This document shows, piece after piece, positions 13,889 through 34,279 of a stretch of 46,995 nt of DNA. Origin of the DNA: Glycocaulis profundi. Lineage in GTDB: Bacteria > Pseudomonadota > Alphaproteobacteria > Caulobacterales > Maricaulaceae. The stretch covers positions 1 to 46,995 of the forward strand of contig VJOU01000021.1 in NCBI GenBank assembly GCA_007050995.1. The letters are read 5' to 3'. Each line of letters starts with the position of its first letter. The stretch's first letter is position 1. A program made the translations under genes and the position numbers. Under the pieces are notes generated by a model that saw only the letters and a program-made list of their open reading frames with translations, did not search any database and was not told the origin of the DNA.

Positions 13889-13947
13889 GGGATTTCCCTT
13901 CCATCAGGTTGCTTCCTGTTGGGAGGTATCTATGACAGAAAGCTAAG

Positions 13948-17427: not shown

Positions 17428-18399
17428 ATGAACAGAATGCCCGATATCCCGAGAAACGTGCCTATTCCTGCAAACGACGGCGAAACGCGGATCGCGCAGC
17501 GTCCCGTGCGTTCGCCGCTGCTGGACACGGTCGAGGCCTACATCGACGCCCAGGGCGGCGGGCAGGGGCGGTTCCCCCTGCCGGTGCCGGGCGTCAATAT
17601 CATCCGCTCCTTTCAGGAGTTCATGCCGCCCCACAAAATCTACCGCCCGTCCCTGTGCGTGACCCTGCAGGGCGCAAAGCAGGTCCAGTTCGGAGAGGGC
17701 GAGCTTCACTACGGCGCCATGCAATGCCTGGTGGTGAGCATCGACATGCCAGGGGTGGGCCGGATTGCGCAGGCCAGCCCAACCGAGCCTTTTGTCGGCG
17801 TCACCATTGATTTTGATGTCGCCCTGCTGCGCGAGGTCATCAGTCAGCTCGAGACGCCGCCGCCACCCGACACCGGTTCGGAATCTTGCCTGTTCGTCGC
17901 CGATGTCGACGACAGCCTTGCCGATTGCATCGCGCGGCTGGTGAAGATGGCCGACACGCCCGCCTCGATCAGCTTCCTGCACCCGCTCGTCATGCGGGAG
18001 ATCTGCTACTGGCTTCTCGGCGGCCCGCATGGCGGCGAGCTGCGCAGGCTTGCGCTGCCGGAATCGCACTCCGAACGGATCGCGCGGGTGCTCTACTATC
18101 TGCGCGAGCGGCTCGATCAGCCTGTCCGCATCGAAGAGCTGGCCGATATGGCGGGCATGAGCGCCTCGTCCTTCCATCAGCATTTCAAGGCGATGACGTC
18201 GATGACGCCGCTCCAGTATCAGAAGCAGCTGAGGCTGCTGGAAGCCCGCCGTCTCATGGTGGCCGATGCGGCGACCGTCAGCGACGCGGCCTATCAGGTC
18301 GGCTATGAAAGCGCCTCCCAGTTCAGCCGCGAATATGCCCGCGCCTTCGGCACGCCGCCCAAGCGCGATGTCATGACCCTGAAGGCGCTCACGGCCTGA
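17428..18399 (+). CDS. AraC-family transcriptional regulator, AraC_N (YqhC-like) type
   Basis: A 323-residue regulator. The N-terminal domain (about 30-190) is of the AraC_N type (PF06719; IYRPSLCVTLQGAKQVQFGEGELHYG, then LVVSIDMPGVGRI). The C-terminal AraC domain has VRIEELADMAGMSASSFHQHFKAMTSMTPLQYQKQLRL and the second helix-turn-helix VSDAAYQVGYESASQFSREYARAFGTPP. E. coli YqhC, of this family, activates aldehyde reductases on exposure to reactive aldehydes. It is divergent from the MFS/Tat-SDR pair, and 41 bp after its stop begins a direct-repeat operator leading to the next SDR. Start chosen for GAGGAG upstream. Confidence 0.92.
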   Translation: MNRMPDIPRNVPIPANDGETRIAQRPVRSPLLDTVEAYIDAQGGGQGRFPLPVPGVNIIRSFQEFMPPHKIYRPSLCVTLQGAKQVQFGEGELHYGAMQCLVVSIDMPGVGRIAQASPTEPFVGVTIDFDVALLREVISQLETPPPPDTGSESCLFVADVDDSLADCIARLVKMADTPASISFLHPLVMREICYWLLGGPHGGELRRLALPESHSERIARVLYYLRERLDQPVRIEELADMAGMSASSFHQHFKAMTSMTPLQYQKQLRLLEARRLMVADAATVSDAAYQVGYESASQFSREYARAFGTPPKRDVMTLKALTA

Positions 18400-18439
18400 C
18401 CTGGCGGGGCAGGGCGGGGGCGAAGGGCTTCCGCTGCAG

Positions 18440-18469
18440 GATCAGGCACGTTTTCTGAGCCTTCAGGCA
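18440..18469 (+). promoter_or_regulatory. AraC-type direct-repeat operator, site 1 (upstream of SDR 18524)
   Basis: Half-sites GATCAGGCA (18440-18448) and CTTCAGGCA (18461-18469) start exactly 21 bp apart. The second ends 54 bp before the SDR start codon. The same pattern occurs five more times in this region. Two direct half-sites two helical turns apart are the usual binding mode of AraC-family proteins. Confidence 0.8.
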
Positions 18470-18523
18470 TGGCGCATCTCTCCCGGGATCCGGATGCTGA
18501 TCCGGAAGCCCAGGAGAGACGCC

Positions 18524-19438
18524 ATGACCAAATGGACCACCGCAGACATCCCCGACCAGACAGGCCGTGTGGCCGTCGTGACCGGCACGGCCGGACTCGG
18601 CTATGAAGATGCGCTCGCGCTGGCCCGCGCCGGCGCCGACCTGGTTCTCGCGGGGCGGGACGTCAACAAGGGGCCGGCCGCCGCCGACGCCATCAGGGCC
18701 GCCGCGCCCGGCGCTGCCGTCCGGTTCGAGCGGCTCGATCTGGCCAGCCTGGACTCGGTGCATGCCTTCGCCGACCGGCTGCGCGGCGAGACCGGCCGGC
18801 TCGACCTGCTCATCAACAATGCCGGGATCATGACCCCGCCGGACCGGCGCGTCACCGAGGACGGGTTCGAACTCCAGCTCGGCACCAACCATCTGGGGCA
18901 TTTCGCCCTGACCGCCTGGCTCCTGCCTTTGCTGAAGCAGACCCCGAAGGCGCGCGTCGTGGCCGTCTCCAGCGTGGCGGCCCGGGCGGGCGCGATCCAC
19001 TTCGATGATCTGAACAGCGAGCGCGCCTATCGGGCGATGTCCGCCTACGCCCAGTCCAAGCTGGCCTGCCTGATGTTCGCCTTCGAGCTTCAGCGCCGAA
19101 GCGAGGCCGGGGGCTGGGGAGTGACCAGCATCGCGGCTCATCCGGGACTCTCCAGGACGGACCTGCTCTACAAGATGGCGCGTCCCTGGGACCCGCGGAT
19201 CTATCTGCGCACCCTTCTGTGGTTCATGTTTCAGTCCGTGCCTCAGGGCGCGCTGCCGACCCTGTACGCGGCGACGGCGCCCGAGGCGGCTCCCGGGGGA
19301 TATTACGGACCGAACGGTCCCGGGGAGACACGCGGTTACCCCTCACCGTCCCTCATCCCCACGAACGCCCTGGACACCGAGGCGGCGGCAAGGCTGTGGG
19401 AGGTGTCGGAAAGGCTGACGGGCGCGCGTTTCGAGTGA
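18524..19438 (+). CDS. Short-chain dehydrogenase, retinol-dehydrogenase-like
   Basis: A 304-residue SDR of the retinol dehydrogenase/WWOX-like branch (TNHLGHFALTAWLLPLL, AVSSVAARAG, YAQSK with Tyr175 and Lys179, then VTSIAAHPGLSRTDL). The cofactor loop reads T20-G-T-A-G-L-G26, one residue shorter than the usual TGxxxGxG. The gene has its own AraC-type operator (18440-18469) and follows the AraC regulator on the same strand. It resembles the SDR at 34280-35374 in the C-terminal GGYYGP region. The start at 18524 is chosen because GGAGAG precedes it and the ten in-frame residues upstream are not conserved-looking. Substrate unknown. Confidence 0.88.
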   Translation: MTKWTTADIPDQTGRVAVVTGTAGLGYEDALALARAGADLVLAGRDVNKGPAAADAIRAAAPGAAVRFERLDLASLDSVHAFADRLRGETGRLDLLINNAGIMTPPDRRVTEDGFELQLGTNHLGHFALTAWLLPLLKQTPKARVVAVSSVAARAGAIHFDDLNSERAYRAMSAYAQSKLACLMFAFELQRRSEAGGWGVTSIAAHPGLSRTDLLYKMARPWDPRIYLRTLLWFMFQSVPQGALPTLYAATAPEAAPGGYYGPNGPGETRGYPSPSLIPTNALDTEAAARLWEVSERLTGARFE

Positions 19439-19561
19439 GCGCGCCGCGCGGCTCAAACGTCCAGACCAGACCGGCGCCGTCACGTCTGCGAACCCTGTGG
19501 GCGCCGGGCTCGGTGGGGCAGGAAAACACCCCTGCTGGTCTCGGCGCCGCGCGGGTCCGGG

Positions 19562-20458
19562 TCAGGCGGCCTGGCTTTCATCGCCCCGGCGGGCTTCCCG
19601 GCTCGGGGGGTAGCCGAATTTCCGCGCGAATTCGCGGCTGAACTGCGTGGGGCTTTCATATCCCACCGCGAACGCGGCCGTCGTCACGGACAGGCCTTCA
19701 TCGGCGAGCTTCTGACGCGCGACCAGCAGGCGAATATCCTTCTGGAACTGGAGCGGTGTGGTGGCCGTGACGGCTTTGAAATGCTCATGGAAGCTGGACA
19801 GGCTCATGCCCGCGAGGTTTGCGAGTTCGTTCACCGATACGGGGCTGGCGTAGTCGCGTCTGAGCTTGACGATCGCCCGGTTGACGCGGCTCGCATGGCT
19901 GTCGGGCTGCAACAGACGCCGGAGCATGCCGCCATGCTCCTGCATCAGCATGTGGAAATGAACTTCCCGGATCAGAAGCGGGGTGAGGATCTGCTGCTCC
20001 ATGGCGGGTCGCGACAGCAGGTCGAAGAGCCGTCCCATGGCGTGCTGGGGGGCCGTCCCGCTCGCGCCCGAGGCGATGGCGTGATCCGTGCGCAGGTCAG
20101 GCTCCGAGAGGTCGATCTCGGCCTGAAGGCTGCGCAGAACGGCAAAGTCGATCCGCAGGGCGAGGCCGACATAGGGCCGGTGAGGCGACGCCTCACGGAC
20201 CCGGTTGGTGGTCGGCAGGTCGACGCTGACGATCATCGTGTCGCCGCGTCCATAGCTGACCACGCGATCACCCAGATGCGCCTCCTTGCGGCCTTGCAGG
20301 ACGAAACAGAACAGCGGCGCGTAGAGCGCGTTCTGCAGCGGCGTCGGTGTCCGGCTGCGGATCATGCACAGGCCATGCGGTCCGATCTCGCGGGGCGCTT
20401 CGGGCAGCCCTTTGGCGTCGGCGAACTCTATGAGGCGCGAGATCAGCGCAGGGTCCAT
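19562..20458 (-). CDS. AraC-family transcriptional regulator, AraC_N type, divergent from RND operon
   Basis: A 298-residue regulator with the AraC_N sensor domain (LYAPLFCFVLQGRKEAHLGDRVVSYGRGDTMIVSVDLP) and the C-terminal AraC domain (VSVNELANLAGMSLSSFHEHFKAVTATTPLQFQKDIRLL; VTTAAFAVGYESPTQFSREFARKFGYPP). The start at 20458 has GGAG seven bases upstream; an in-frame start 57 bases earlier lacks a ribosome site. It is divergent from the RND efflux operon, and the spacer holds a direct-repeat operator facing that operon, so it is the most likely regulator of it. Inducer unknown. Confidence 0.92.
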   Translation of the reverse strand: MDPALISRLIEFADAKGLPEAPREIGPHGLCMIRSRTPTPLQNALYAPLFCFVLQGRKEAHLGDRVVSYGRGDTMIVSVDLPTTNRVREASPHRPYVGLALRIDFAVLRSLQAEIDLSEPDLRTDHAIASGASGTAPQHAMGRLFDLLSRPAMEQQILTPLLIREVHFHMLMQEHGGMLRRLLQPDSHASRVNRAIVKLRRDYASPVSVNELANLAGMSLSSFHEHFKAVTATTPLQFQKDIRLLVARQKLADEGLSVTTAAFAVGYESPTQFSREFARKFGYPPSREARRGDESQAA

Positions 20459-20535
20459 CGTCTTGCTCCATGTCCAGACCCCGACCGTACACATCCGGCC
20501 AGTTCGTGTCTGCACAATCCAAGGCGTGATCGGAG

Positions 20536-20565
20536 GATCGGGCAGGTAATTTGGACGAGCGGGCA
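20536..20565 (+). promoter_or_regulatory. AraC-type direct-repeat operator, site 2 (upstream of RND operon)
   Basis: Half-sites GATCGGGCA (20536-20544) and GAGCGGGCA (20557-20565) are spaced 21 bp start to start. The second ends 65 bp before the start of the membrane-fusion gene. A possible -10 element (TGTAGG) lies about 20 bp further on. Confidence 0.8.
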
Positions 20566-20630
20566 GGCAAGCCCGGGTCCAGGCCTGTAGGTCCTGAAGG
20601 CGAGCAACGCGCCGTCAGGACACACGACCC

Positions 20631-21875
20631 ATGAATCAGACAGACCCCGCCGTCACCCGGACCCTGGCCCGCCTGCCCGCGCCGCTCCGAATCCCGCGAA
20701 CGGCCCGAACGGTCATCGAGTCCGTTGAGCGACCCCCCAGCGTTCTCAGGCGAGCGCCGCCCTGGCGGCCTCGCCGCGGCGCCGTTTCACGGCTTCGATC
20801 CGCCTGGCTCGCCCTGACCGTGCTCGGGCTCTACGCCCTCGCCCCTGCGGCGCTCGCGCAGCAGAACGGGCCGATGACCGTGATCACGGCCCCGGCGACG
20901 GAGCGAGACTTCGTCGATCGGATCGAAGCGCTCGGCACGCTGCAGGCGAATGAGCTGATCGACATCACGGCGCTCATCACCGAACGGGTGACCGCCATCC
21001 ATTTCGACGACGGCGACGCCGTTGCGAGAGGGCAGATCCTCGTGGAGTTCTCCCGCGGCCAAGAGGAGGCCCTGCTCGCGCAGACCCGGGCCGTGCGGGA
21101 TGAAGCCGAGGACGAGTTCCGGCGGGCTGAAACGCTGGAGGGACGCGGCGCCGTGTCCCAGAGCGAATTCGCCCTGCGCCGGCGCGAACGCGCGGTCGCC
21201 GAAGCGCGGGTCGCGGAGATGGAAGCGCGGGTGTCCGATCGAATCCTGCGCGCGCCCTTCGACGGCATAATAGGGCTTCGCCAGATCAGCGCCGGGGCGA
21301 CGGTCTCGCCCGGGGACGTGATCGCGCGGCTCGTCGATACCCAGACCCTGAAACTCGATTTCTCCGTCCCCGCGAGCGTGCTCGGGGCCCTGGAGCCGGG
21401 CGCGCAGATCGAGGCGCGCCTGCGGGGGGGCGGGGACAGGCCCGTCCAGGGGAGTGTCGCCTCCATCGACAGCGTGATCGATCCGGTCACCCGGTCCGTG
21501 CTGGTGCGGGCCCATGTCCCGAATGAAGACGACCGTCTCCGGCCCGGGCAGCTCGTGCGCGTGGACCTGTTGAGCAATGCGCGCACGGCGATAGCGGTGC
21601 CGGAAGGCGCCCTCATCCCGGAAGGGGCGCGCACTTTCGTCTATGTCGCCGAACCCGGCGAGACAGGGGCCTTGGCGGCGATCCGCCGGGAGGTGCGTGT
21701 CGGCGCCCGGCGCGCGGGCCATGTGGAGATCCTCGAGGGGCTGGAGAGCGCCGAGACCGTGATCGCCGAAGGCGCGCTCAGGCTGCGTCCCGGGGCGCTC
21801 GTGCGTCCCGTGAGCTCGATACAGGACAGCGCTCCGGCGCCAGTCGCGCAACCCGCCACGGAGGCGTCCAGATGA
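20631..21875 (+). CDS. RND efflux membrane-fusion (periplasmic adaptor) protein
   Basis: A 414-residue adaptor of the AcrA/MexA family. The hydrophobic anchor or signal segment (WLALTVLGLYALAPAALAQ) starts only near residue 58, after an arginine- and proline-rich N-terminal extension, so a start further downstream is possible. The lipoyl/barrel-sandwich halves (VTAIHFDDGDAVARGQILVEF and ILRAPFDGIIGLRQISAGATVSPGD), the coiled-coil hairpin between them and the beta-barrel are present. It couples the inner-membrane pump encoded next (4-bp overlap, ATGA) to the outer-membrane channel encoded third. Confidence 0.93.
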   Translation: MNQTDPAVTRTLARLPAPLRIPRTARTVIESVERPPSVLRRAPPWRPRRGAVSRLRSAWLALTVLGLYALAPAALAQQNGPMTVITAPATERDFVDRIEALGTLQANELIDITALITERVTAIHFDDGDAVARGQILVEFSRGQEEALLAQTRAVRDEAEDEFRRAETLEGRGAVSQSEFALRRRERAVAEARVAEMEARVSDRILRAPFDGIIGLRQISAGATVSPGDVIARLVDTQTLKLDFSVPASVLGALEPGAQIEARLRGGGDRPVQGSVASIDSVIDPVTRSVLVRAHVPNEDDRLRPGQLVRVDLLSNARTAIAVPEGALIPEGARTFVYVAEPGETGALAAIRREVRVGARRAGHVEILEGLESAETVIAEGALRLRPGALVRPVSSIQDSAPAPVAQPATEASR

Positions 21876-24800
21876 TCCTCTCCGATATGTCGGTGCGGCG
21901 CCCGGTGGTGGCCGCCGTGATGTCCCTGATCCTCGTGGCGTGCGGGGTCGTGTCCTTCCAGCTCCTGCCCCTGCGTCAGTATCCCGATATCGATCCGCCC
22001 ATCGTCTCCATTGAAACGATGTATCCCGGCGCCGCCGCGAACGTGGTCGAGACGCGCGTCACCGAACTCATCGAAGAGCGGGTTTCCGGGATCGAAGGGA
22101 TCGAGACGATCGAATCCGTCAGCGAGGACGGTCAGTCGACGATCACGCTCACCTTCGTCACCACGCGCGATCCCGACGCCGCGGCCAATGACGTGCGTGA
22201 CCGCGTCGCCGGGGTGCTGAGCGACCTGCCCGAGGAGGCCGACCCGCCAGAGGTCACGAAGGTTGATGCCAACCAGGACGTCGTCATCTGGGTGAACCTG
22301 ACTGGGGACCAGATGTCTATGGCGGAGCTGACCGACTATGCCGAGCGCTATCTCGTCGACCGGTTCGCGCGGATCGAGGGCGTCGCGCGGGTCCAGATCG
22401 GCGGCCGGCAGTCCTACGCCATGCGAATCTGGCTCGATCGCCAGGAAATGGCGGCCCGTGACATCGTCGTGGCGGACGTGGAAGCGCGGCTGCGGGCGGA
22501 GAATCTCGAACTGCCCGCCGGCAGCATCGAATCCGTCGACCGGCAGCTCACCGTGCGGGTCGACCGGATGTTCTCCACTCCGGACGACTTCGCCCGGCTG
22601 GTGATTGCCGAAGGGCGGGACGGCTATCTGGTGCGGCTCGGCGACATCGCGCGCGTCGAACTGGGAACCGTGGAATCGCGCACCTTCTTCCGCGGCAATC
22701 TGGTCCCCAATATCGGGCTGGGCATCATCCGGCAGTCGACCGCGAACACCGTGGCGGTGGCCAGGGCGACCCGCGCCGAGGCGGCGCAGATCGGTGAAAC
22801 GCTGCCCGACGGCATGTCGCTGGAACCCGCCTATGACACCTCGGTCTTCATCGAAAGCGCCATCACCGAGGTGTATGTCACGCTCGCGATCGCGGTCCTG
22901 CTGGTCGTTTTCGTGATCTTCCTGTTCCTGGGCAGTCTCCGCGCCACGCTCATTCCGGCCGTGACCGTTCCCGTCTCGCTCATCGGCGCCTTCTTCGCCA
23001 TGCAGCTTCTGGGCTTCTCCATAAACCTGCTCACCCTGCTCGCGCTGGTGCTGGCGATCGGTCTTGTCGTGGACGACGCCATCGTGGTCCTGGAGAACAT
23101 TTTCCGCCGGATGGACGAGGGCGGGGAGACGCCCCTGGTCGCGGCCTATGAAGGCGCGCGCCAGGTCGGGTTCGCGGTTGTCGCGACCACCGTCGTGCTG
23201 ATCGCGGTGTTCACGCCCATCGCCTTTCTCCAGGGCGATGTGGGGCGGCTCTTCTCCGAATTCGCGCTCACCATGGCCGCGGCGGTGGCGATCTCAAGCT
23301 TCGTGGCCCTGACCCTCTGTCCGGCGCTAGCATCGAAAGTGCTCAAGCCGCGGACCAACAAACTCTTCATCACCCGGATCATCGACGCCGGGTTCGCCAG
23401 GCTGCGCGCGGGCTATGCGTGGCTGCTCCGCATCCTTCTGAAGGTCCCGGTCATCGGGCTCGGTCTCATCGCCGCAGGCGTGGCCGGGTCCGTCGCTCTG
23501 ACGATGAGCCTGCCGTCCGAATACGCCCCGCGCGAAGATCGCGGCGTCTTCTTCGTCATCGTGACCGGCCCCGAAGGCGCCACCCATGACTACATGGCGC
23601 GCTACATGGACGAGATCGAACGGCGCATGACGCCCTATGTCGAGGCCGGCGAGGTCCAGCGTCTGCTCGTCCGGTCGCCCAACAGTTTCGGCAATTTCGA
23701 GACCTTCAACAGCGGCATCGTCATCTCCGTGCTCAGCGATTGGGACGCGCGGCGCGGCGGGTTCGAGATCATGGCCGAGCTCAATGCGCGCCTGGCGGAC
23801 CTGCCGGGTGTCCGGGCCTTCCCCGTCATGCCCCAGGGGTTTGGCGGCGGGCCGCAGATGCCCGTGCAGATGACCATCGGCGGCGGCAGCTGGGAGCAAC
23901 TGGCCGAATGGCGGGACACCCTGCTCGAGGCGATCGCCGAGCGGGAGCTGGCGCTTGGCCGGATCGACTGGGATTACAGGGAAACCGCGCCGCAGTTGCG
24001 GGTCGATATCGACTATGACCAGGCCGCGACGCTCGGCGTGAGCCTCGCCAATATCGGCCGGACCCTGGAAACCATGTTCGGCTCGCGCCGGGTGACGACC
24101 TTCATGATGGCGGGCGAGGAATATGACGTGATGCTCGAAGGCGAGCGCGACCTCCAACGCTCGCCCGCGGCGCTGACCAATATCCATGTCCGCTCAGACC
24201 GCACCGGCGCGCTCATCCCCTTGAGCACGCTGGTCACGCTCCGCGAAGCGGGGGGCTCGTCCAGCCTCAACCGATTCAACCGCGTGCGCGCCATCACGAT
24301 CGAAGCCGGCCTTCCACCCGGGCGCGCCCTGGGCGACGCGCTCGACGAGTTGGAAGCGCTCGCCCGCGAGGTGCTCCCGCCCGAAGTGGTGATCGACTTC
24401 AAAGGCGAGTCTCGCGACATCCGTCAGGCGGGGGAGTCGATGGCGTTCATCTTCGCGTTCGGCGCGGGGATCGTCTTCCTGGTGCTGGCCGCGCAGTTTG
24501 AAAGCGTGCGGCATCCCCTCGTGATCATGCTGTCGGTGCCGGTCGCCATCGTCGGCGGGCTGCTGGCCCTGCGCCTGACCGGCTTGTCGCTCAATCTCTA
24601 CAGCCAGATCGGCCTCATCATGCTGATCGGGCTGGCGGCGAAGAACGGCATCCTGATCGTGGAGTTCGCCAACCAGCTTCGCGATCGGGGGCAGGCTTTC
24701 CGCGAGCCGCTGTACGAGGCCTCGCTCGCACGCTTCCGCCCCATCGTGATGACGGGCGTGACGACCATCGCCGGATCCATTCCGCTCATCCTCTCCAGTG

Positions 24801-25003
24801 GCGCGGGGCAGGAAACCCGCTTCGTGATGGGGGTCGTGATCTTCGGAGGCGTTCTGGTCTCGACCTTCGTCGCCCTGATCACCGTGCCGACGGCCTACGC
24901 CCTGCTCGCCCGGGGCACGCAGTCGCCCGGCACGATTGCGCGGCGGCTCGATGCCGAGCGCAAGGCCTCTCCGCTTCTCTCCCCTGAAGCCCCAGCAGAG
25001 TAG
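21872..25003 (+). CDS. RND multidrug efflux permease (HAE1-type)
   Basis: A 1043-residue inner-membrane pump with the two-fold RND layout: a transmembrane helix, a large periplasmic loop, six more helices, repeated. The proton-relay acids Asp401-Asp402 lie in GLVVDDAIVVLENIFRRM and Lys924 in AAKNGILIVEF. The usual RND opening SVRRPVVAAVMSLILV and QYPDIDPPIVSIETMYPGA are intact. It exports hydrophobic or amphiphilic compounds with proton antiport. It is the middle gene of a three-gene operon with adaptor and outer-membrane factor. Substrate range cannot be predicted, but the context of reductases suggests toxic small molecules. Confidence 0.96.
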   Translation: MILSDMSVRRPVVAAVMSLILVACGVVSFQLLPLRQYPDIDPPIVSIETMYPGAAANVVETRVTELIEERVSGIEGIETIESVSEDGQSTITLTFVTTRDPDAAANDVRDRVAGVLSDLPEEADPPEVTKVDANQDVVIWVNLTGDQMSMAELTDYAERYLVDRFARIEGVARVQIGGRQSYAMRIWLDRQEMAARDIVVADVEARLRAENLELPAGSIESVDRQLTVRVDRMFSTPDDFARLVIAEGRDGYLVRLGDIARVELGTVESRTFFRGNLVPNIGLGIIRQSTANTVAVARATRAEAAQIGETLPDGMSLEPAYDTSVFIESAITEVYVTLAIAVLLVVFVIFLFLGSLRATLIPAVTVPVSLIGAFFAMQLLGFSINLLTLLALVLAIGLVVDDAIVVLENIFRRMDEGGETPLVAAYEGARQVGFAVVATTVVLIAVFTPIAFLQGDVGRLFSEFALTMAAAVAISSFVALTLCPALASKVLKPRTNKLFITRIIDAGFARLRAGYAWLLRILLKVPVIGLGLIAAGVAGSVALTMSLPSEYAPREDRGVFFVIVTGPEGATHDYMARYMDEIERRMTPYVEAGEVQRLLVRSPNSFGNFETFNSGIVISVLSDWDARRGGFEIMAELNARLADLPGVRAFPVMPQGFGGGPQMPVQMTIGGGSWEQLAEWRDTLLEAIAERELALGRIDWDYRETAPQLRVDIDYDQAATLGVSLANIGRTLETMFGSRRVTTFMMAGEEYDVMLEGERDLQRSPAALTNIHVRSDRTGALIPLSTLVTLREAGGSSSLNRFNRVRAITIEAGLPPGRALGDALDELEALAREVLPPEVVIDFKGESRDIRQAGESMAFIFAFGAGIVFLVLAAQFESVRHPLVIMLSVPVAIVGGLLALRLTGLSLNLYSQIGLIMLIGLAAKNGILIVEFANQLRDRGQAFREPLYEASLARFRPIVMTGVTTIAGSIPLILSSGAGQETRFVMGVVIFGGVLVSTFVALITVPTAYALLARGTQSPGTIARRLDAERKASPLLSPEAPAE

Positions 25004-25011
25004 GTTGTGCG

Positions 25012-26484
25012 ATGTCCCCGACTGTGCCCGTTCGCCTGACGCGCCTCATGGCAGCCGCCCGCCTCACGGCCGCTGCGACGGTCGCAGGGCTGCTTTCGGC
25101 CTGCGCCACCCTGGGCCCCGATCACGCCCCGCCGGACACAGGTCCGTATGCGAGCGAAGCGTTCGTGTTCGGCGATCCATATGGGTCGCAGATGCCCCTG
25201 GCGCGCTGGTGGACAGCGTTCGATGACGCCGAACTCGATCGCCTCATCGAACGCGGTCTCGCCGAGAACCGCACGCTGACGCGCGCCGCCGCGAACCTGC
25301 AGCGGGCGCGGGCTGAACTCGGGCTCGCACGCCTTGAACGGGTGCCCGAGGACACCGTCAGCGCGAGCTATCTCGAAGCCCGGCGGGCCAGCGCGTCGTC
25401 CAGCGAGGCAGGCCCCGGTTCAGGGCCTGCGGCGCCGGCTGAAACCCTGCGCTATGGCCAGCTGGGCGTCTCCGCGCTCTGGGAACTCGATCTGTTCGGA
25501 CGCATAGATCGCATGATCGAAAGCGCTGCCGCGCGCGCGGAGGCGTCTGAAGCCGCCCTTGCGGACCTGCAGCTCGTCATCATCGCGGACATTGCCGACG
25601 CCTATGTGAGCCTGCGCGGGCTCTACGCCCAGCTTCGCGTCGCGAACGAGAATGTCGAGAACCAGCAGGAGACACTCGCACTGGTGCGCGATCTGCAGGC
25701 CGCAGGCCGCGCGACGGAGCTGGACGTTCAGCAGACGCGCGTTCAGCTCGCCAATGCGGACGCCGTCCGCCCGATCCTGCAAGCCGCGATCGCGGAAAGA
25801 ACGAGCCAGCTGGCCGTGCTCGTGGGCGTCACGCCTGCGCACCTGGAGCCGCTGATCGAGGCCGGCGCCGCTCTGCCGCTCATCGAGGGCGTCATCGCCG
25901 CCGGCGATCCGGCCGCCCTGCTGCGACGCCGGCCGGATATCCGCGAGCGCGAACGGATCCTGGCGGCCGCGACGGCGGAAATCGGCGTCAATCTCGCCGA
26001 CGCCTTCCCGCGCCTGAGCCTTTTGGGCGATGTCGGGTTCAGTTCCGCGGGGGGCGGAGACCTGTTCGGCACCAATGCCCTGAACTTCGCGCTTGGCCCG
26101 CAGCTGTCCTGGTCGGTGTTGGGACTTGCCGGGACCCGGCAGCGCGTGGCTGCGGCGCGGGCGTCTGCGGTCATGGCATTCGCCGAATACGAGCAGGCGG
26201 TGCTCATGGCGCTCGCGGAAACGGAAACCGCGCTCGCCCGGCAGGCCCAGCTTCAACGCCGCATCGCGTCGCTTCGGGATGCCGACGCCGCCGCCGTGTC
26301 GGCGGCCGACCTGGCGCGGCTGCGATATGAGACCGGCGCCACGGATTTCCTCAATGTTCTCGATGCGGACCGTGTGAGGCTGGATGCCGCCAACCAGCTC
26401 GCCGCGGCCCGCACCGAACTGGCGCGCGCGCAGGTGGCGGTCTTCAGAGCCCTGCGAGCCGGAAGCCCGCCCGGACAGGCGTGA
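25012..26484 (+). CDS. Outer-membrane efflux lipoprotein, NodT/OprM family
   Basis: A 490-residue TolC-like channel protein. A lipobox LLSA-C31 marks it as a lipoprotein. The repeated OEP halves are seen, with WWTAFDDAELDRLIERGLAENRTL, YGQLGVSALWELDLFGRIDR, RRRPDIREREREIL-like sequence and NFALGPQLSWSVLGLAGTRQR. It forms the trimeric outer-membrane exit duct for the RND pump encoded 8 bp upstream. It is the last gene of the RND operon. Confidence 0.94.
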   Translation: MSPTVPVRLTRLMAAARLTAAATVAGLLSACATLGPDHAPPDTGPYASEAFVFGDPYGSQMPLARWWTAFDDAELDRLIERGLAENRTLTRAAANLQRARAELGLARLERVPEDTVSASYLEARRASASSSEAGPGSGPAAPAETLRYGQLGVSALWELDLFGRIDRMIESAAARAEASEAALADLQLVIIADIADAYVSLRGLYAQLRVANENVENQQETLALVRDLQAAGRATELDVQQTRVQLANADAVRPILQAAIAERTSQLAVLVGVTPAHLEPLIEAGAALPLIEGVIAAGDPAALLRRRPDIRERERILAAATAEIGVNLADAFPRLSLLGDVGFSSAGGGDLFGTNALNFALGPQLSWSVLGLAGTRQRVAAARASAVMAFAEYEQAVLMALAETETALARQAQLQRRIASLRDADAAAVSAADLARLRYETGATDFLNVLDADRVRLDAANQLAAARTELARAQVAVFRALRAGSPPGQA

Positions 26485-26608
26485 CCGGGCCGCCATCGAC
26501 CGGCCCTGTGCTGCCGCCGGAGCCCTCATGGGCGCTTTTCATCGTCAGACATCAGCGCAGCGGGGATTCAGCGCCCGAGGGGAACTCGAACCGAAACGCG
26601 CGATGCAG

Positions 26609-26638
26609 GATCAGGCAGGTTTTGTGGACCTTCGGGAA
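26609..26638 (+). promoter_or_regulatory. AraC-type direct-repeat operator, site 3 (upstream of DUF2306 gene)
   Basis: Half-sites GATCAGGCA (26609-26617) and CTTCGGGAA (26630-26638) are 21 bp apart. The flanks (GCAG before, TGG after) match site 1 closely. It ends 94 bp before the membrane-protein start, further than at the other sites. Confidence 0.75.
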
Positions 26639-26732
26639 TGGACCGGCGTGTGCCGGGCCTCTTTGGTGGTTCAGGCCCGGGTCGGGCGTTCAGACCCGGT
26701 CTTGCCGCCACCAACAGAAGGACACGAACTCC

Positions 26733-27596
26733 ATGACGGACTACGCTGCAACTCCGGAGCCTGGCCCAAGCGGCCATGGCGAACGCGCGCTCTCCGCCGC
26801 CGCGCTACGCTGGAGCGGTCGGCTGCTGGTGGCGACCACCTGGGTGAGCGGGGCGATCTTCGCCGTCTACATCCTGGCCTTCTTCGGCGGCTCCGCCATC
26901 CGGGGGATGGCCGAGCGGTGGAACGAGTCCCTTCCCGGTCTGCACGATGCCGCCGCGCCCCTCGCCACCGCCGCCATCGGCGCGCACTTCTTCGCTGGCG
27001 GCGTCCTCCTGCTTCTGGGGCCGATCCAGCTGTTCGGCGCGGTCCGCCGCCGCGTGCCGGCCCTGCATCGCTGGCTGGGACGGGTCTATGTGGTCTCGGC
27101 GGGTCTGGCGGGCGTCGGCGGCCTGGCCTTCATCGCCGGCTCCGGAACGGTCGGCGGAACCCTCATGGATGTGGGATTCGGCCTGTATGGCGCGCTGATG
27201 ATCCTGTGCGCGATCCTGGCGTACACGAACGCCCGCGGCGGCCGGTATGACCAGCACCGGGCCTGGGCCATCCGGCTCTTCGCCCTGACCGTGGGCTCAT
27301 GGCTCTACCGAATGGAGTACGCCGCCTGGTCGGTGACCACCGGCGGGATCGGTATGGGCGCCGGATTCAGCGGCTGGTTCGACGCCATCATGATGTTCTT
27401 CTTCTACGTGCCGAACCTGATCGTCGCGGAGATGTTCATCCGCGCGCGCCGGACCGGGCCCGGAACGGTGATCAGCTCCACTGCCGCGATTGTCATGGTC
27501 GCAGCCTCCGCCTTCATCATCCTCGCCACCTTCCTGTTCACCCGGGGCGCGTGGGGCCCGCGGGCCATCAGCGGGCTTGTGGGCGGCCCGGCATAG
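26733..27596 (+). CDS. DUF2306-like integral membrane protein
   Basis: A 287-residue protein with about seven hydrophobic segments after a 35-residue polar N-terminus. The motif pattern GPIQLFGAVRRRVPALHRWLGRVYVVS and the following LYGALMILCAILAYTNARGGRYDQHRAWAIRLFAL match the DUF2306 family, whose conserved His-Arg pairs suggest a cofactor or ion site; the function is not established. It lies 248 bp after the RND operon with its own operator, so it is probably a separate unit of the same regulon. Start chosen for AGAAGGA upstream. Confidence 0.8.
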   Translation: MTDYAATPEPGPSGHGERALSAAALRWSGRLLVATTWVSGAIFAVYILAFFGGSAIRGMAERWNESLPGLHDAAAPLATAAIGAHFFAGGVLLLLGPIQLFGAVRRRVPALHRWLGRVYVVSAGLAGVGGLAFIAGSGTVGGTLMDVGFGLYGALMILCAILAYTNARGGRYDQHRAWAIRLFALTVGSWLYRMEYAAWSVTTGGIGMGAGFSGWFDAIMMFFFYVPNLIVAEMFIRARRTGPGTVISSTAAIVMVAASAFIILATFLFTRGAWGPRAISGLVGGPA

Positions 27597-28069
27597 CGCC
27601 ATCTCCGGTGACGAGGCTCCGGCCAGCCGGGGCGGCGAGCGGAGCCTTCTCGCCCGTCTGCCGCAGCGGACCCCGGTCGGAGACCCCCAAGAGACGGCGG
27701 GCGGCGACGGCTGAGGTCTGCCGCCGCCACGGGTTCGGCAGGGCGATAGTCTGCACGCGGACACCGGGGGCTCCGGTAACGGCTGGGTGAAGGCCGGGGT
27801 CACGTCGCCGAGCCCTGCGTGCAGGGAAGGGCGGAACACGCGGGTGGCCAGGGTTTTGGGACGGGGGGTCTCAGGCCTCGCATCTTCCCCTGCCGGCGCG
27901 GTGGCGAAGACCGTCGACCAGCAAGGCCATCATCCGGCGCGACTGTTCGACATCGTCCTCGCTAGCGGGCGAGGCCAGACGTGACGCGGCCAGCTGGCGA
28001 GCGCGTCGCAGTCTGATATCGACCTGCCGCGGGCGTCAGCGCCGCCCCGGAAGAGGGCGGCCCCGCCCG
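27597..28069. other. 473-bp gap between convergent genes, mostly without recognisable features
   Basis: This stretch separates the DUF2306 gene (plus strand) and an AraC gene (minus strand), which converge here. Apart from a possible TetR C-terminal remnant at 27871-28035 no gene, terminator with a T tract, or repeat was found. It looks like decayed coding sequence. Confidence 0.5.
27871..28035 (-). pseudogene. Possible remnant of a TetR-family regulator C-terminus
   Basis: A minus-strand frame of 54 codons bounded by stops on both sides and without a start codon. The end reads VEQSRRMMALLVDGLR followed by a short basic tail, which resembles the last helix of TetR-family regulators. No DNA-binding domain is found upstream. 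If real, it is the eroded end of a lost regulator gene; a chance resemblance is possible. Confidence 0.25.
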
Positions 28070-30059
<1,990 letters not shown>

Positions 30060-30072
30060 CGCGGCCGCGCGT

Positions 30073-30101
30073 CCGGTTCCGCCACGGTGTGGCGGAACCG
30101 G
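30073..30101. terminator. Bidirectional hairpin between convergent aldo/keto reductase and SDR genes
   Basis: A perfect 12-bp stem (30073-30084 with 30090-30101) with a 5-base loop lies 14 bp after the reductase stop and 17 bp after the SDR stop on the other strand. No T tract follows on either side, so termination efficiency is uncertain. Confidence 0.6.
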
Positions 30102-30117
30102 CGCGTGCCCCGCCCTG

Positions 30118-30876
30118 TCACCAGGGCACGGTCTCGTTCTGCCAGCCGGTGAAGGTTCCCGTCGGCCCGTCCCTGCCAAGGAGCGCCACGCGGACGGCCT
30201 CGGCCGCGCCCTGCTCGACGGTGTCGGTGCCCTCGTAATTGTTGAGCGCGGTCTTGGTGAAGCCCGGTGTCACCGCATTGACCTTGATGCCCTCGTCCTC
30301 GAGATCGATGGCGAAGGCCAGCGTGATGGCGTTGAGCGCCGTCTTCGATGCGCCATAGCCGGGATTGAAAGTCGCCCGATACGGATGGGGCGCAGCGTTG
30401 ACGGTGAGCGAGCCGAGGCCGCTGGAGACGTTGACGATGCGGGCGTCGTCCGACTTGCGCAGCAGCGGCACGAAGGCCTGGGTGACGGCCAGCACCCCGA
30501 AGACATTGGTCTCCCAGACGGCGCGCACCTCCTCGACCGGGATCAGCGTCGCGCGCGAGCGTTGGATATAGGACTCCATGGTCTCGCTTTCCTGGCCATT
30601 GGCCCGGGAGATCGCGGCGTTGTTGATGAGGATGTCGAGACGGCCGAAGCGGCTTTCGACCTCTTCGACCGCCGCGCGGATGGACGCGCCATCGGTCACA
30701 TCGAGCTGGATGGGATGCACATCGCCCTCCAGGGTCTGGGCCGCCGCCTCGCCGCGGTCAGGATTGCGCGAGGCCAGCAGCACGGTGAGCCCGGCCTTGG
30801 CGAGATCGGAGGCGATCTGAAGCCCGATGCCCTGGTTGGCGCCGGTGACGAGTGCGATGCGGGGTGTCGTGGTCAT
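30118..30876 (-). CDS. Short-chain dehydrogenase/reductase (carbonyl-reductase-like)
   Basis: A 252-residue SDR. TGANQGIG at 11-18, INNAA, Ser151/152, Tyr174 and Lys178 (YGASK), and NAVTPGFTKTALNNY are present. The short-loop pattern and YRATFNPGYGASKTALN resemble carbonyl-reductase-like SDRs with NADPH preference (SRNPDRG after the second strand). It is divergent from the AraC regulator at 30963 with an 86-bp spacer that contains a 12-bp inverted repeat. The start at 30876 is favoured over an in-frame ATG 42 bases earlier because the SDR fold begins right after it. Confidence 0.9.
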   Translation of the reverse strand: MTTTPRIALVTGANQGIGLQIASDLAKAGLTVLLASRNPDRGEAAAQTLEGDVHPIQLDVTDGASIRAAVEEVESRFGRLDILINNAAISRANGQESETMESYIQRSRATLIPVEEVRAVWETNVFGVLAVTQAFVPLLRKSDDARIVNVSSGLGSLTVNAAPHPYRATFNPGYGASKTALNAITLAFAIDLEDEGIKVNAVTPGFTKTALNNYEGTDTVEQGAAEAVRVALLGRDGPTGTFTGWQNETVPW

Positions 30877-30922
30877 GGGAGGGTCCTGTTCCTGATTGCC
30901 CGGACAGGAGATGGTCATCCGG

Positions 30923-30953
30923 CTCTGGACGTTCTATGTTCGAACGTCCAGAG
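30923..30953. promoter_or_regulatory. 12-bp inverted repeat in divergent SDR/AraC spacer, probable operator
   Basis: CTCTGGACGTTC (30923-30934) and GAACGTCCAGAG (30942-30953) are perfect inverted copies around a 7-base spacer. It ends 9 bp before the AraC start at 30963. Symmetric sites are less usual for AraC proteins, so a dimeric regulator of another kind, or autoregulation of a dimeric AraC protein, is possible. Confidence 0.65.
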
Positions 30954-30962
30954 AAACTTCGA

Positions 30963-31922
30963 ATGAGTCCAGAAATGGCGGACCCTCTCGCCCAGATCGT
31001 CGGCCTGCTGCGGCCGGGTGCACCGTTTTCCAAATGCGTCACCGGGTCCGGACCCTGGCGCGTGAGACGCACGCAGTCGCCCAATCCCTATTATGTCGCC
31101 GTGCTCAAGGGCAGCCTGCGATACCGTGATGACCGCAGCGGCGAGATTATCGTCGATGCGGGCGATTTCATCCTGATCCCCTTCGCCCAGGATTTCATGA
31201 TGTGGAGCGAAGCGCCCAGCCGCGAGGCGGACATGGTGATCAATCCCGTCATCCTGCCCGGCGGCGGGTACAGGGTGGGCAGGGTGGACGGTCCCGTCGA
31301 TATGCGCGCCCTGGTCGGCTACTGCGTCTTCCAGTCCGCCGACGCCACGCTGTTGTCATCCCTGCTGCCGGACGTGGTGGTGGTGCGGGGCGAGCATCGT
31401 CTGGCCCTGATCATGCAGTTGCTCGGCGAAGAAGCCATCGGCAGCAAGCCCGCCCGCGAGGTGGTGCTGCAGCATCTTCTGGAGGTGCTGCTGATCGAAG
31501 CCCTGCGCTCGACCGCAGAGCCGGGCAAGGCGCCGGGCCTGCTGCGCGGGCTATCGGACGATCGGCTGGCCAGGGCGATCCGCGCCATGCATGCCGCGCC
31601 GGGACGCAACTGGTCGGTGGCCGGACTGGCGCGGGAGGCCGCCCTGTCCCGGTCGGGGTTCCATGCGCGGTTTCAGAGCGCCGTAGGCATGGGGCCGATG
31701 GCGTATCTCACCGCCTGGCGGGTGGCCCTGGCCAAGCGCCTCCTGAGGCAGCGCGACACCAGCGTAAGCGAGATCGCCCGGCAGGTCGGCTACGGGTCCG
31801 CGAGCGCCTTCAGCGTGGCGTTCCAGCGGGAGACCGGCCTGTCGCCCGCACGCTATGCCCGTGATGCACCCACAGCCGCTGACACGAGCGGGGCGGCCGA
31901 GTTTGAAGGCGCCATCGCCTGA
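30963..31922 (+). CDS. AraC-family transcriptional regulator, cupin N-terminal type
   Basis: A 319-residue regulator of the same type as the one at 13948. The cupin-like sensor half shows YYVAVLKGSLRYRDDRSGEIIVDAGDFILIP; the AraC half has WSVAGLAREAALSRSGFHARFQSAVGMGPMAYLTAWRVALAKRLL and VSEIARQVGYGSASAFSVAFQRETGLSPARY. Several starts are possible (30936, 30963, 30975); 30963 has GAGA at suitable spacing and leaves the inverted repeat upstream intact. It is divergent from the SDR at 30118-30876, its probable target. A neighbouring AraC gene (minus strand) converges 43 bp downstream. Confidence 0.9.
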   Translation: MSPEMADPLAQIVGLLRPGAPFSKCVTGSGPWRVRRTQSPNPYYVAVLKGSLRYRDDRSGEIIVDAGDFILIPFAQDFMMWSEAPSREADMVINPVILPGGGYRVGRVDGPVDMRALVGYCVFQSADATLLSSLLPDVVVVRGEHRLALIMQLLGEEAIGSKPAREVVLQHLLEVLLIEALRSTAEPGKAPGLLRGLSDDRLARAIRAMHAAPGRNWSVAGLAREAALSRSGFHARFQSAVGMGPMAYLTAWRVALAKRLLRQRDTSVSEIARQVGYGSASAFSVAFQRETGLSPARYARDAPTAADTSGAAEFEGAIA

Positions 31923-31965
31923 GAGGTCGGCCGCCAGCGCCTCTTTACCCCCGAACCACCCGGGT

Positions 31966-32856
31966 TCACGCGCCTACATAACCGGATGCTTTCAATCGCT
32001 GCGCGTCCATGCGGGGCGATGCGCTGAACACGCGACGATACTCGCGGCTGAACTGGGACGGGCTCTGATAGCCCACCGCGAAGGCGGCGTCCGCGGCGTT
32101 CGCGTCCGTCGAGATCATGAGCGCGCGTGCCGCCTCTAGCCGCAGCCGTTTCTGGAACTCGAGCGGGGTCAGAGTCGTGATCGCCTTGAAGTGTTCGTGC
32201 AGGGAGGAGGGGCTCATGCCGGCGGCGGTGGCGACGTCATCGATCCGGAACGGCTTGCGATAATTCTCCCGGATGAAGGCGGTGGCACGGCCGACGCGGC
32301 CGACATGACTGTCGCCCTGGGCGATCCGGCGAAGCGCCGGGCCGTGAGGCCCGATGAGCAGGCGGTACAGGATCTCCTTCTCGATCAGCGGCGCCAGCAC
32401 GCCGGCCTGCGCGGGCTGGCCGAGCAGCTCGACAAGTCGGCACGCCGCGTCGATCAGACGCGTGTCGGCAGGATGCACGGCGAGAGGGGGCGGCACGCTG
32501 CCGGCCGTCTCGCCGCTGTCCTGCATGACCAGCTCCGTCAGTACGGCCGGATCGATATCGATCTTGCAGCACAGATAAGGGGCTTGCGCGCTCGCCTGCA
32601 GGACGCGCCCGACCAGGGGCAGGTCCACGGACACGATCAGATAGCTCGCCGCATCATAAACGAGGCTCCTGCCGCCCAAGGACACGGTCTTGGCGCCCTG
32701 GGCGATGAGGCAAACCGACGCTTCGTAGACCGTCGGCAGGTCATCGGTCGGCTGATCGGACCGGATCAGGGTCAGCCGACCGATCGGGGTCCTGTGAACG
32801 CCGCTCTCCGGCGTGAAGCGGAGCATCTGGCGCGCGAGTTCGGTGCGATGGGTCAT
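31966..32856 (-). CDS. AraC-family transcriptional regulator, AraC_N type, divergent from SDR
   Basis: A 296-residue regulator. The AraC_N domain shows VYEASVCLIAQGAKTVSLGGRSLVYDAASYLIVSVDLPLVGRV; the DNA-binding domain has FRIDDVATAAGMSPSSLHEHFKAITTLTPLEFQKRLRLEAAR and NAADAAFAVGYQSPSQFSREYRRVFSASP. The ATG at 32856 is chosen; a GTG 15 bases upstream is an alternative. It is divergent from the SDR at 33003 with a direct-repeat operator between them. It is the nearest AraC_N-type gene to two operator copies (sites 5 and 6). Confidence 0.92.
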   Translation of the reverse strand: MTHRTELARQMLRFTPESGVHRTPIGRLTLIRSDQPTDDLPTVYEASVCLIAQGAKTVSLGGRSLVYDAASYLIVSVDLPLVGRVLQASAQAPYLCCKIDIDPAVLTELVMQDSGETAGSVPPPLAVHPADTRLIDAACRLVELLGQPAQAGVLAPLIEKEILYRLLIGPHGPALRRIAQGDSHVGRVGRATAFIRENYRKPFRIDDVATAAGMSPSSLHEHFKAITTLTPLEFQKRLRLEAARALMISTDANAADAAFAVGYQSPSQFSREYRRVFSASPRMDAQRLKASGYVGA

Positions 32857-32914
32857 GCAGTCTTGTTTCACGCGAGCGGAGGCCCGCGCAAGCGCATCTG
32901 AGCCGGCGGCGGAG

Positions 32915-32944
32915 AATCAGGCAAGCTTTCCGGGCGATCTGTCT
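32915..32944 (+). promoter_or_regulatory. AraC-type direct-repeat operator, site 5 (upstream of SDR 33003)
   Basis: The first half-site is AATCAGGCA (32915-32923); the second, 21 bp on, is GATCTGTCT (32936-32944), a weaker match. It ends 58 bp before the SDR start, in line with the other sites. The position supports it despite the degenerate second half. Confidence 0.65.
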
Positions 32945-33002
32945 ATCGCCTCCTGTCGCTGCGGCCGCATTGTCCGCCCGTCCCACAGCGAAAGGAAACA
33001 CC

Positions 33003-33728
33003 ATGACAGCTCTTGCTGGAAAAACCGTCCTGATCACAGGCGCGTCGAGCGGCATTGGCGAAGCCACCGTGCGCGAGCTCGCCGGGACCGGCGCCAATCT
33101 CTTCATCGGCGCGCGGCGGGACGACCGGCTCGCGGCGCTCGCCCGTGAGCTCGGCGACAATGTCGCCTGGCGCAGGCTCGACGTGACCGACGCAGACGAT
33201 TTCGACGCGTTCGCGGACGCCGCCGAGGCGCAGTTCGGCCGCATCGATGCCATCGTCAACAATGCCGGCGTCATGCCGCTTTCGCCGCTCCAGGCGCTCA
33301 AACGCGAAGACTGGAAGCGGATGATCGACGTCAATGTCCACGGCGTCCTGAACGGGATCGCGTCTGTGCTGCCGCGGTTCGTGTCCCAGAAATCCGGCCA
33401 TGTCGTGAACGTGGCCTCGGTGGGCGCGCATATCGTCCTTCCGAGCGCCGCGGTCTATTGTGGCACCAAGTATGCGGTCTGGGCGATCTCTGAAGGCCTG
33501 CGCCAGGAACATGACGAGGTCCGGTGCACGATCATATGCCCGGGCGTCACCGATACCGAACTGGGTCACGACATCACGGTGCCGGAGATTGCCCAGGGGC
33601 TGGAACAGTGGCGCAAGAAATCGCTCCAGCCCGACGCGATCGCCCGCGCGATCCGGTTCGCGCTGGAACAGCCCGACGGCGTGGATGTGAACGAGATCAT
33701 CGTGCGCCCCACCGCGGCGGACATGTGA
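33003..33728 (+). CDS. Short-chain dehydrogenase/reductase (classical SDR)
   Basis: A 241-residue SDR with T12-G-A-S-S-G-I-G19, NNAG at 86-89, Ser139, Tyr152 and Lys156 (YCGTK). GARRDDR after the second strand suggests NADP(H). The ending EQPDGVDVNEIIVRPTAADM parallels that of the SDR at 13154-13888, so these two are probably paralogues kept under different regulators (AraC_N type here, cupin type there). AAGGA precedes the start by 6 bases. It is divergent from the AraC gene at 31966-32856. Substrate unknown. Confidence 0.92.
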   Translation: MTALAGKTVLITGASSGIGEATVRELAGTGANLFIGARRDDRLAALARELGDNVAWRRLDVTDADDFDAFADAAEAQFGRIDAIVNNAGVMPLSPLQALKREDWKRMIDVNVHGVLNGIASVLPRFVSQKSGHVVNVASVGAHIVLPSAAVYCGTKYAVWAISEGLRQEHDEVRCTIICPGVTDTELGHDITVPEIAQGLEQWRKKSLQPDAIARAIRFALEQPDGVDVNEIIVRPTAADM

Positions 33729-33862
33729 TCCTCACCGTCGGCCCGTCCGATTGATGTCCGGGGCCGTCGACTGCAGGGGCCCAGGCAAGACAGCGTTGGT
33801 CGGTTCAACAACGGCTTGGGTCACTCGCAATCGCCGATTCCCAGTTGATCAAGATCGGCATC

Positions 33863-33902
33863 AGGCACCGGCCTGTCAGCATGAGCTGACAGGCCGGTGC
33901 CT
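33863..33902. repeat. Perfect 18-bp stem hairpin with 4-base loop
   Basis: Positions 33863-33880 and 33885-33902 are perfect inverted copies around ATGA. No T tract follows. It could terminate transcription of the SDR upstream, or be a remnant end of a mobile element. It is the longest perfect hairpin seen in the window. Confidence 0.65.
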
Positions 33903-34195
33903 CATCAATGTGGGCGGGCGGCGGGTCGCCGCGCAGCTCCCAGTTCAGCGCCTGCGGCTCGCTCTCGAAAGAGGGCGAGCGGAGGAATGGGCTGAATCTC
34001 GGATAGACCCAGTGGCGTAGCCAGATGGCGGAGCGCGCCGTCCCTTGCTCTGCTGCCCGGCCGCACCCTGCTCCGCCCCGGGGGGCGTTCCGGGAGAGGG
34101 GCGCGCCGTCGCTAGCCTCCGTCGGTCGCGCGGATCGGCTTCGCGGCGAAATCTCCGGTCATCTTGCGGAAAGAAAACTGGCGGATCTCTCATAG

Positions 34196-34225
34196 GAACA
34201 GGCAAATAAATTCAAGGTTTCGGCA
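34196..34225 (+). promoter_or_regulatory. AraC-type direct-repeat operator, site 6 (upstream of Tat-SDR 34280)
   Basis: Half-sites GAACAGGCA (34196-34204) and GTTTCGGCA (34217-34225) are 21 bp apart and are followed by TGG as at sites 1 and 3. The site ends 54 bp before the start codon, the same distance as site 1. A possible -10 (TTCTAG) lies at 34245-34250. No AraC gene is directly adjacent. Confidence 0.65.
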
Positions 34226-34279
34226 TGGCATGAATGGTCCGCCTTTCTAGTCTTCGTAACGCAAAAGGAGGCGTTTCCC

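Follow-up and report, generated by a model that had tools for sequence, protein, structure and literature searches.

Seven apparent copies of one putative on-switch in a 17-kb reductase and efflux gene cluster of Glycocaulis profundi

Introduction

Operators of the AraC family are usually thought to be poorly conserved, which makes the regulons of these proteins hard to predict. At araI1-I2, and at the sites of class II AraC-family activators, the half-sites are tandem direct repeats with a 21-bp period, and the promoter-proximal half-site lies at the -35 region. Here we analyze a stretch of 46,995 nucleotides from the alphaproteobacterium Glycocaulis profundi (contig VJOU01000021.1 of assembly GCA_007050995.1, positions 1 to 46,995; hereafter the window), in which a cluster of reductase and efflux genes spanning 17 kb apparently carries seven copies of one putative on-switch, a pair of half-sites 21 bp apart, among four regulators (AraC1 to AraC4) with an AraC_N domain. 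Each site is very probably the operator of a YqhC-type (AraC_N, PF06719) regulator that activates a reductase or efflux gene, and the regulators of this module are most likely activators. The module shares with araI1-I2 and class II sites the tandem 21-bp layout and the half-site adjacent to -35, and differs from them in sequence, sensor domain and target genes. In Pseudomonas aeruginosa, the AraC-type regulator CmrA is linked to the RND (resistance-nodulation-division) pump MexEF-OprN, much as AraC2 accompanies an RND pump here.

The closest described system is YqhC of Escherichia coli. YqhC is an activator, yqhD is activated by glyoxal and furfural, and DkgA is termed an aldo-keto reductase (PMC5297802); the DNA-binding properties of YqhC have been determined (PMC4132294), ChIP-exo sites with a sequence pattern have been reported (PMC8464067), genomic SELEX (gSELEX) made it a single-target regulator (PMC8249747), the yqhC promoter that was assayed is given no site (PMC7567609), and the protein is already used in aldehyde biosensors (PMC6115493). 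The E. coli site has probably been mapped already. YqhC itself is known; we found no description of a family-wide AraC_N operator in the titles and opening abstracts that searches of an open-access library returned.

Like the window regulators, YqhC combines AraC_N with an AraC helix-turn-helix (HTH) domain according to Pfam and is encoded divergently from reductase genes. The gap between yqhC and yqhD holds AGAAATAGGCA and, 21 bp on, AGAAATGAGCA, two half-sites that face yqhD as the window sites face their targets, and the yqhD-dkgA genes, for an aldehyde reductase and the methylglyoxal reductase DkgA, are comparable to the aldo/keto reductase beside AraC3. In contrast to the single-target YqhC, the genome of G. 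profundi encodes six such regulators, four of them in one cluster with seven sites, and RND, major facilitator superfamily (MFS) and DUF2306 genes are among the targets as well.

Results

Six sites face the plus strand at the positions given by an initial annotation of this DNA (Table 1), and in each the second half-site starts exactly 21 bp after the first, as had been claimed. The first half-site has the consensus AGGATCAGGCA, with 8 of 11 columns invariant in the alignment of the six plus-strand sites. The second is loose (CTTCAGGCA, GAGCGGGCA, CTTCGGGAA, GATCGGGCA, GATCTGTCT and GTTTCGGCA), which is why a strict pattern requiring both half-sites matched only one site. The region between the half-sites is T-rich in the aligned window sites. 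From the 30-bp site to the ATG the gaps of sites 1 to 6 are 54, 65, 94, 60, 58 and 54 bases, in agreement with the earlier description of five of the six as lying 54-65 bp before a start codon; counted from site start to start codon, the distances are 86, 97, 126, 92, 90 and 86 bp. The genes that follow encode, in order, a short-chain dehydrogenase/reductase (SDR), an RND membrane-fusion protein, a DUF2306 protein, an aldo/keto reductase and two further SDRs.

A matrix built from the six sites found a seventh at 24.9 bits, the next window position reaching 7.6. Site 7 lies on the minus strand, its start 94 bp from the start codon of its likely target, the MFS gene, whose start at 17375 has a good ribosome site. 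The statement that all copies face the plus strand is right for the six it covered; with the seventh, orientation follows the target gene, and the plus-only pattern is incidental. Site 7 overlaps the first codons of AraC1 if that gene starts at the ATG at 17428, and alternative in-frame AraC1 starts are present; with the start at 17428 the site falls outside any spacer, which accounts for its having been overlooked.

When each of the seven sites was left out in turn, the matrix built from the other six recovered it (7 of 7). With an outside matrix, made from 58 sites of other genomes, no position in the window outscores any of the seven, which have scores of 35.9, 29.0, 25.7, 19.5, 12.6, 10.9 and 7.7, followed by 4.9 for the next position. 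In 50 shuffles of the window in two-base blocks, the maxima averaged 3.2 and the highest was 18.1, a value that the three weakest sites (12.6, 10.9 and 7.7) individually fail to exceed. A scan of the 3.63-Mb genome with a model trained on the seven, in which 150 of 1038 first-look candidates were scored, returned nine matches at E<=10. The window sites fill the first seven places (E from 2.8e-7 to 7e-4), and the pattern is not scattered over the genome at random positions and orientations. The eighth match (C2:161067, E 0.23), which was not a training site, adjoins a fifth AraC_N gene, and on visual inspection the ninth (C98:22798, E 0.29) appeared to fall within a GGDEF/EAL-like reading frame.

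The sites keep company with one regulator family. The genome has six AraC_N genes among 13 regulators with an HTH_18 domain. Near these six genes the best scores of the 58-site outside matrix are 35.6, 33.2, 19.4, 28.8, 15.3 and 26.0, and near the seven other AraC-type regulators, for which five 4-5-kb stretches and two gaps of the window were scored, they range from -10.0 to 0.7. The site beside the AraC_N gene on C13 was missed by the six-site window matrix and was first picked by eye. We also examined the best 80 of 81 AraC4 relatives from a species collection, a query that favours AraC4-like proteins. Counted with the window half-sites only, 43 half-site pairs upstream of these relatives are spaced by 21 bp and face away from the regulator, and 0 face toward it; spacings of 10 and 11 bp give 10 and 11 pairs, those of 15 and 29 bp reach 6, and the rest give 0-3. 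The enrichment at 10-11 bp suggests a ten-base sub-repeat, as might be expected from two HTH contacts per subunit. When the relatives were scored by leave-one-out matrices, a site of at least 14 bits appeared between -450 and +60 of the regulator match in 75 of the 80 loci, one of them, in an archaeal bin (L045), being weak at 15.1. All but one of 84 such hits near the regulator face away from it, and hits elsewhere number 6 in 669 kb, with 0 in one shuffle per locus. By their records these loci belong to Pseudomonadota, Thermodesulfobacteriota, Chlorobiota, Verrucomicrobiota, Acidobacteriota, Nitrospirota, Spirochaetota, Gemmatimonadota, Armatimonadota and Myxococcota, a list that could include misbinned contigs, many of the loci being from metagenome bins.

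A less biased sample came from a Pfam search for AraC_N genes in 190 genomes of the class. Such genes occur in 19 of the 190, with at most two in each of the other 18 genomes against six here, and a site scoring above 12 bits is present at 18 of the 22 loci drawn in this way outside this genome. Each best hit faces away from the regulator, and none of these sites is identical to any training site at more than 29 of 36 positions. Among six further AraC_N loci in near relatives, three reach 14 bits and a fourth 11.6. The model R2, whose training included all seven window sites, was run on the 190 genomes with 34 candidates scored per genome; all 19 of its hits at E<0.01 lie in 12 AraC_N-bearing genomes, and 16 are within 1 kb of an AraC_N gene, four of these being training sites of this genome. 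The other three (G077:C11:39663, G204:C3:357436 and G203:C34:518406) are possible distant targets. In G203 (locus L208) one regulator is flanked by two sites, at 1536 (-), pointing away upstream, and 2523 (+), facing a downstream SDR, which is the layout of AraC1 in the window. AraC_N genes occur in 0 of 5 genomes of the same genus and in 4 of 19 other genomes of the same family, so that the AraC_N set is accessory in this lineage.

It is barely credible that the sites are copied or mobile DNA that spread through the cluster without regulatory meaning. Several copies do lie within 17 kb, and SDR1 and SDR3 are paralogues (46% identical), but no relationship is visible by eye between the sequences flanking the window copies, and the same site type, spacing, orientation and -10 register recur beside AraC_N genes of several phyla; the peak at 21 bp, the sites of relatives and the Pfam-drawn loci all contradict such an origin.

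In relatives and in E. coli the site sits in a fixed promoter frame. When 69 relatives were aligned on the site, an extra peak beyond the operator resembled a -10 element: AnnnT occurs at offset 54/55 in 42 of 64 non-redundant regions of relatives, against a mean of 6.0 and a highest value of 14 for other adjacent offset pairs. For E. coli yqhD, the -35 is TTGAGA and the -10 CACAAT (PMC6115493, citing Lee 2010). These lie at +32 and at +55 to +60 from the site start, the -35 coming directly after the second half-site, which therefore abuts it. This is the arrangement of class II AraC-type activators. A repressor could also act at such a place, by blocking the -35 until a signal releases it. 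That the sites are repressor operators is nevertheless quite improbable, since the single -10 register of the relatives fits activation, the window sites have no sigma-70-like match, and YqhC of E. coli acts as an activator according to PMC5297802.

The second half-site differs between regulators in a way that follows their descent. The 114 AraC_N proteins of a quick tree were labelled by the 3' box of their second half-site as GCA, CTA (with ATA/TTA), other or none. This four-way label changes 18 times, compared with 44 in shuffles, and 0 of 200 shuffles were as low, which shows co-inheritance of operator and regulator. Specificity may reside in the 3' box, although shared descent would give the same pattern. 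AraC4 and the C13 regulator fall in CTA clades; AraC1, AraC2 and the C2 regulator fall in a GCA clade (19 rows, 16 GCA and 3 other; support 97), which AraC3 adjoins on a long branch (support 88) that leaves its placement unsure. Clade matrices were then made from outside members only (16 GCA-clade and 23 CTA-alpha sites), which had themselves been picked with a matrix that includes window sites. The GCA/CTA-alpha scores are 26.6/0.1 for SDR1, 34.9/17.9 for RND, 31.1/4.2 for DUF2306, 33.5/20.7 for the aldo/keto reductase, 30.0/-4.2 for SDR3, 22.5/9.5 for MFS and 23.1/10.4 for C2; they are 26.3/38.8 for SDR2 and 11.5/37.2 for C13. E. coli yqhD gives 29.2/-1.1. All seven regulator-linked sites of this genome are assigned to the clade of their regulator. 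Both orphan sites, before DUF2306 and SDR3, are of GCA type, and their second half-sites, CTTCGGGAAT and TTTCGGCAT, resemble those of the AraC1 subclade, from which we predict that AraC1 drives these two genes.

These data bear on cross-talk. The initial annotation had asked about cross-talk between four regulators with a common site, and full cross-talk would mean that all seven promoters respond, through one shared operator, to whichever of the four AraC_N proteins is active. The recognition helices are very similar by eye in all paralogues and in YqhC, the first half-site is nearly identical across sites, and the site of AraC4 itself reaches 26.3 with the GCA matrix. The type of 3' box nevertheless tracks regulator phylogeny, for which shared descent alone could account, and the outside-trained clade matrices set the SDR2 and C13 sites apart from the rest; we consider complete cross-talk unlikely. 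One site shared by four regulators is too simple a picture: there are two site classes, which match regulator clade, with AraC4 probably insulated from AraC1-3 and cross-talk possible among those three. The differences between sites suggest which regulator reads which gene.

Three other accounts of the element were tried and rejected. An element tied to the target gene would be expected upstream of DUF2306 and SDR3 homologues, where it is absent; a general AraC-family site would be expected beside the seven non-AraC_N regulators of this genome, where it is absent too; and an operator private to this cluster does not fit the presence of the same site beside AraC_N genes of many lineages. The site accompanies the regulator family rather than the target genes. 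The AraC-type tandem operator placed for activation beside AraC_N regulators, as initially annotated, is supported; the site is not confined to this one cluster but general to YqhC-type regulators, including that of the E. coli yqhC-yqhD gap. All seven promoters may act as one regulon.

Several observations weigh against AraC_N operators as the explanation. A clear site is lacking at 5 of 80, 4 of 22 and 3 of 6 AraC_N loci in the three samples. At E<=0.05, R2 recovers five of the seven window sites, missing those at 18440 and 34196, and it hits 14 genomes without AraC_N genes, all at E 0.01-0.05, where about 9.5 would be expected over the 190. The model R1, run on 41 relatives, hits four genomes without AraC_N at E 0.009-0.1 (about 4 expected), and its hit in G008 lies far from the AraC_N gene of that genome. 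No site was found upstream of nine other DUF2306 loci, one of them in this genome, or of 28 other SDR3-like loci, where two weak matches appeared, in L188 (inside the gene) and in L189 (at -1113); this SDR3-like count omits three matches without loci and SDR1 of the window. The tree places E. coli YqhC apart from the window regulators, and according to PMC4132294 aldehydes probably act on YqhC indirectly. Finally, -10 boxes are weak at the GC-rich window sites, and a generic promoter scan gave one match against 1.3 expected, none at the window sites; weak boxes would fit dependence on an activator, without proving it.

As Pfam agrees, four AraC_N regulators lie among the sites, all with the AraC_N sensor domain and the AraC HTH over the Pfam cut-off. 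AraC2, AraC3 and AraC4 are divergent from the RND, aldo/keto reductase and SDR2 genes, respectively, and AraC1 is divergent from the MFS gene and upstream of SDR1, so that each adjoins a carbonyl reductase or efflux gene. Two more AraC-type regulators, with a Cupin_6 domain (13948-14889 and 30852-31922), are each divergent from an SDR, and the AraC_N site is absent from both of their gaps (13889-13947 and ~30919-30970). The SDR at 13154-13888 is 47% identical to SDR2, so that related SDRs adjoin two regulator families within one cluster. Between SDR2 and SDR3, at 33860-33905, lies a 21-bp inverted repeat that is almost perfect, has a loop of 4 bases and lacks a T run.

Table 1. Putative operator sites and genes of the cluster, in window coordinates
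Feature	Position	Strand	Remarks
MFS transporter	16065..17375	-	PF07690; likely target of site 7
AraC1, AraC_N regulator	17428..18399	+	PF06719 and HTH_18
Site 7 (new)	17434..17469	-	putative operator facing the MFS gene; start 17467
Site 1	18438..18473	+	putative operator upstream of SDR1; half-site start 18440
SDR1	18524..19438	+	PF00106 (scanned from 18494)
AraC2, AraC_N regulator	19562..20515	-	PF06719
Site 2	20534..20569	+	putative operator between AraC2 and RND operon; half-site start 20536
RND membrane-fusion protein	20631..21875	+	PF16576
RND pump	21872..25003	+	PF00873
Outer-membrane efflux protein	25012..26484	+	PF02321
Site 3 (orphan)	26607..26642	+	putative operator upstream of DUF2306 gene; half-site start 26609
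DUF2306 membrane protein	26733..27596	+	PF10067 (scanned from 26718)
AraC3, AraC_N regulator	28070..28978	-	PF06719
Site 4	28996..29031	+	putative operator between AraC3 and aldo/keto reductase; half-site start 28998
Aldo/keto reductase	29088..30059	+	PF00248 (scanned from 29061)
AraC4, AraC_N regulator	31966..32871	-	PF06719
Site 5 (CTA-type)	32913..32948	+	putative operator between AraC4 and SDR2; half-site start 32915
SDR2	33003..33728	+	PF00106 (scanned from 32973)
Site 6 (orphan)	34194..34229	+	putative operator upstream of SDR3; half-site start 34196
SDR3	34280..35374	+	PF00106

Discussion

How might such a module work? The sequence, spacing and orientation of the sites, their adjacency to AraC_N genes and the -10 register of the relatives are what we observe, and from these we infer binding, activation, signal and the pairing of regulators with genes. 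Two subunits would bind the tandem half-sites, 21 bp apart and in the same orientation, the downstream subunit would touch the -35 region, the -10 would lie some 55 bp beyond the start of the site, and the bound regulator would activate the reductase or efflux gene. The 3' box of the second half-site would set the specificity class, AraC4 reading SDR2 (CTA type) and AraC1-3 reading the GCA-type sites; the probable targets of AraC1 are MFS and SDR1, with DUF2306 and SDR3 as less certain ones.

The genes that the sites face in relatives resemble the window targets in their mix. In 71 relatives, with Pfam families that overlap, they include 26 SDRs, many of them from closely related alphaproteobacteria, 12 aldo/keto reductases, 8 HlyD/RND proteins, 6 dienelactone-type hydrolases, 5 cupins, 4 Fe-dependent and 4 Zn-dependent alcohol dehydrogenases (Fe-ADH, Zn-ADH), and a few flavodoxins and FMN reductases. 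In G201, whose regulator belongs to the AraC1 subclade, the site faces same-strand frames that include a homologue of SDR1 (63% in the best segment), a 2Fe-2S protein, a molybdopterin enzyme, a weak methyltransferase match and a periplasmic binding protein, and G298, which is absent from the tree, has the same layout of regulator, site and SDR. The trigger is probably a reactive carbonyl or other electrophile; given that YqhC is an activator and that glyoxal and furfural activate yqhD, the first of these is the better guess. Of 115 aligned AraC_N proteins, 100 share a cysteine in the motif C-L-V-x-Q-G-x-K (PSLCVTLQGAK in AraC1), which is a candidate electrophile-reactive residue; E. coli YqhC has isoleucine in its place.

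A wider interpretation can be offered tentatively, with somewhat less than even confidence. AraC_N regulators across many phyla may keep one ancient, fixed operator-promoter module, with a GCA/CTA code that co-evolves with the regulator and insulates paralogues from one another, and this genome may have gathered six such regulators and assembled a layered island for defence against electrophiles. There, MFS, SDR1, DUF2306 and SDR3 would all be served by AraC1, the RND pump by AraC2, the aldo/keto reductase by AraC3 and SDR2 by AraC4.

With paralogues whose recognition helices are so alike, the cluster is a small natural setting in which to study whether cross-talk is exploited or prevented, and it offers candidate parts for aldehyde biosensors. 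One matrix and a fixed -10 register find the site beside most of the AraC_N regulators sampled (75 of 80 and 18 of 22), so the sequence could reveal which genes are controlled by many YqhC-like regulators that are still uncharacterised.

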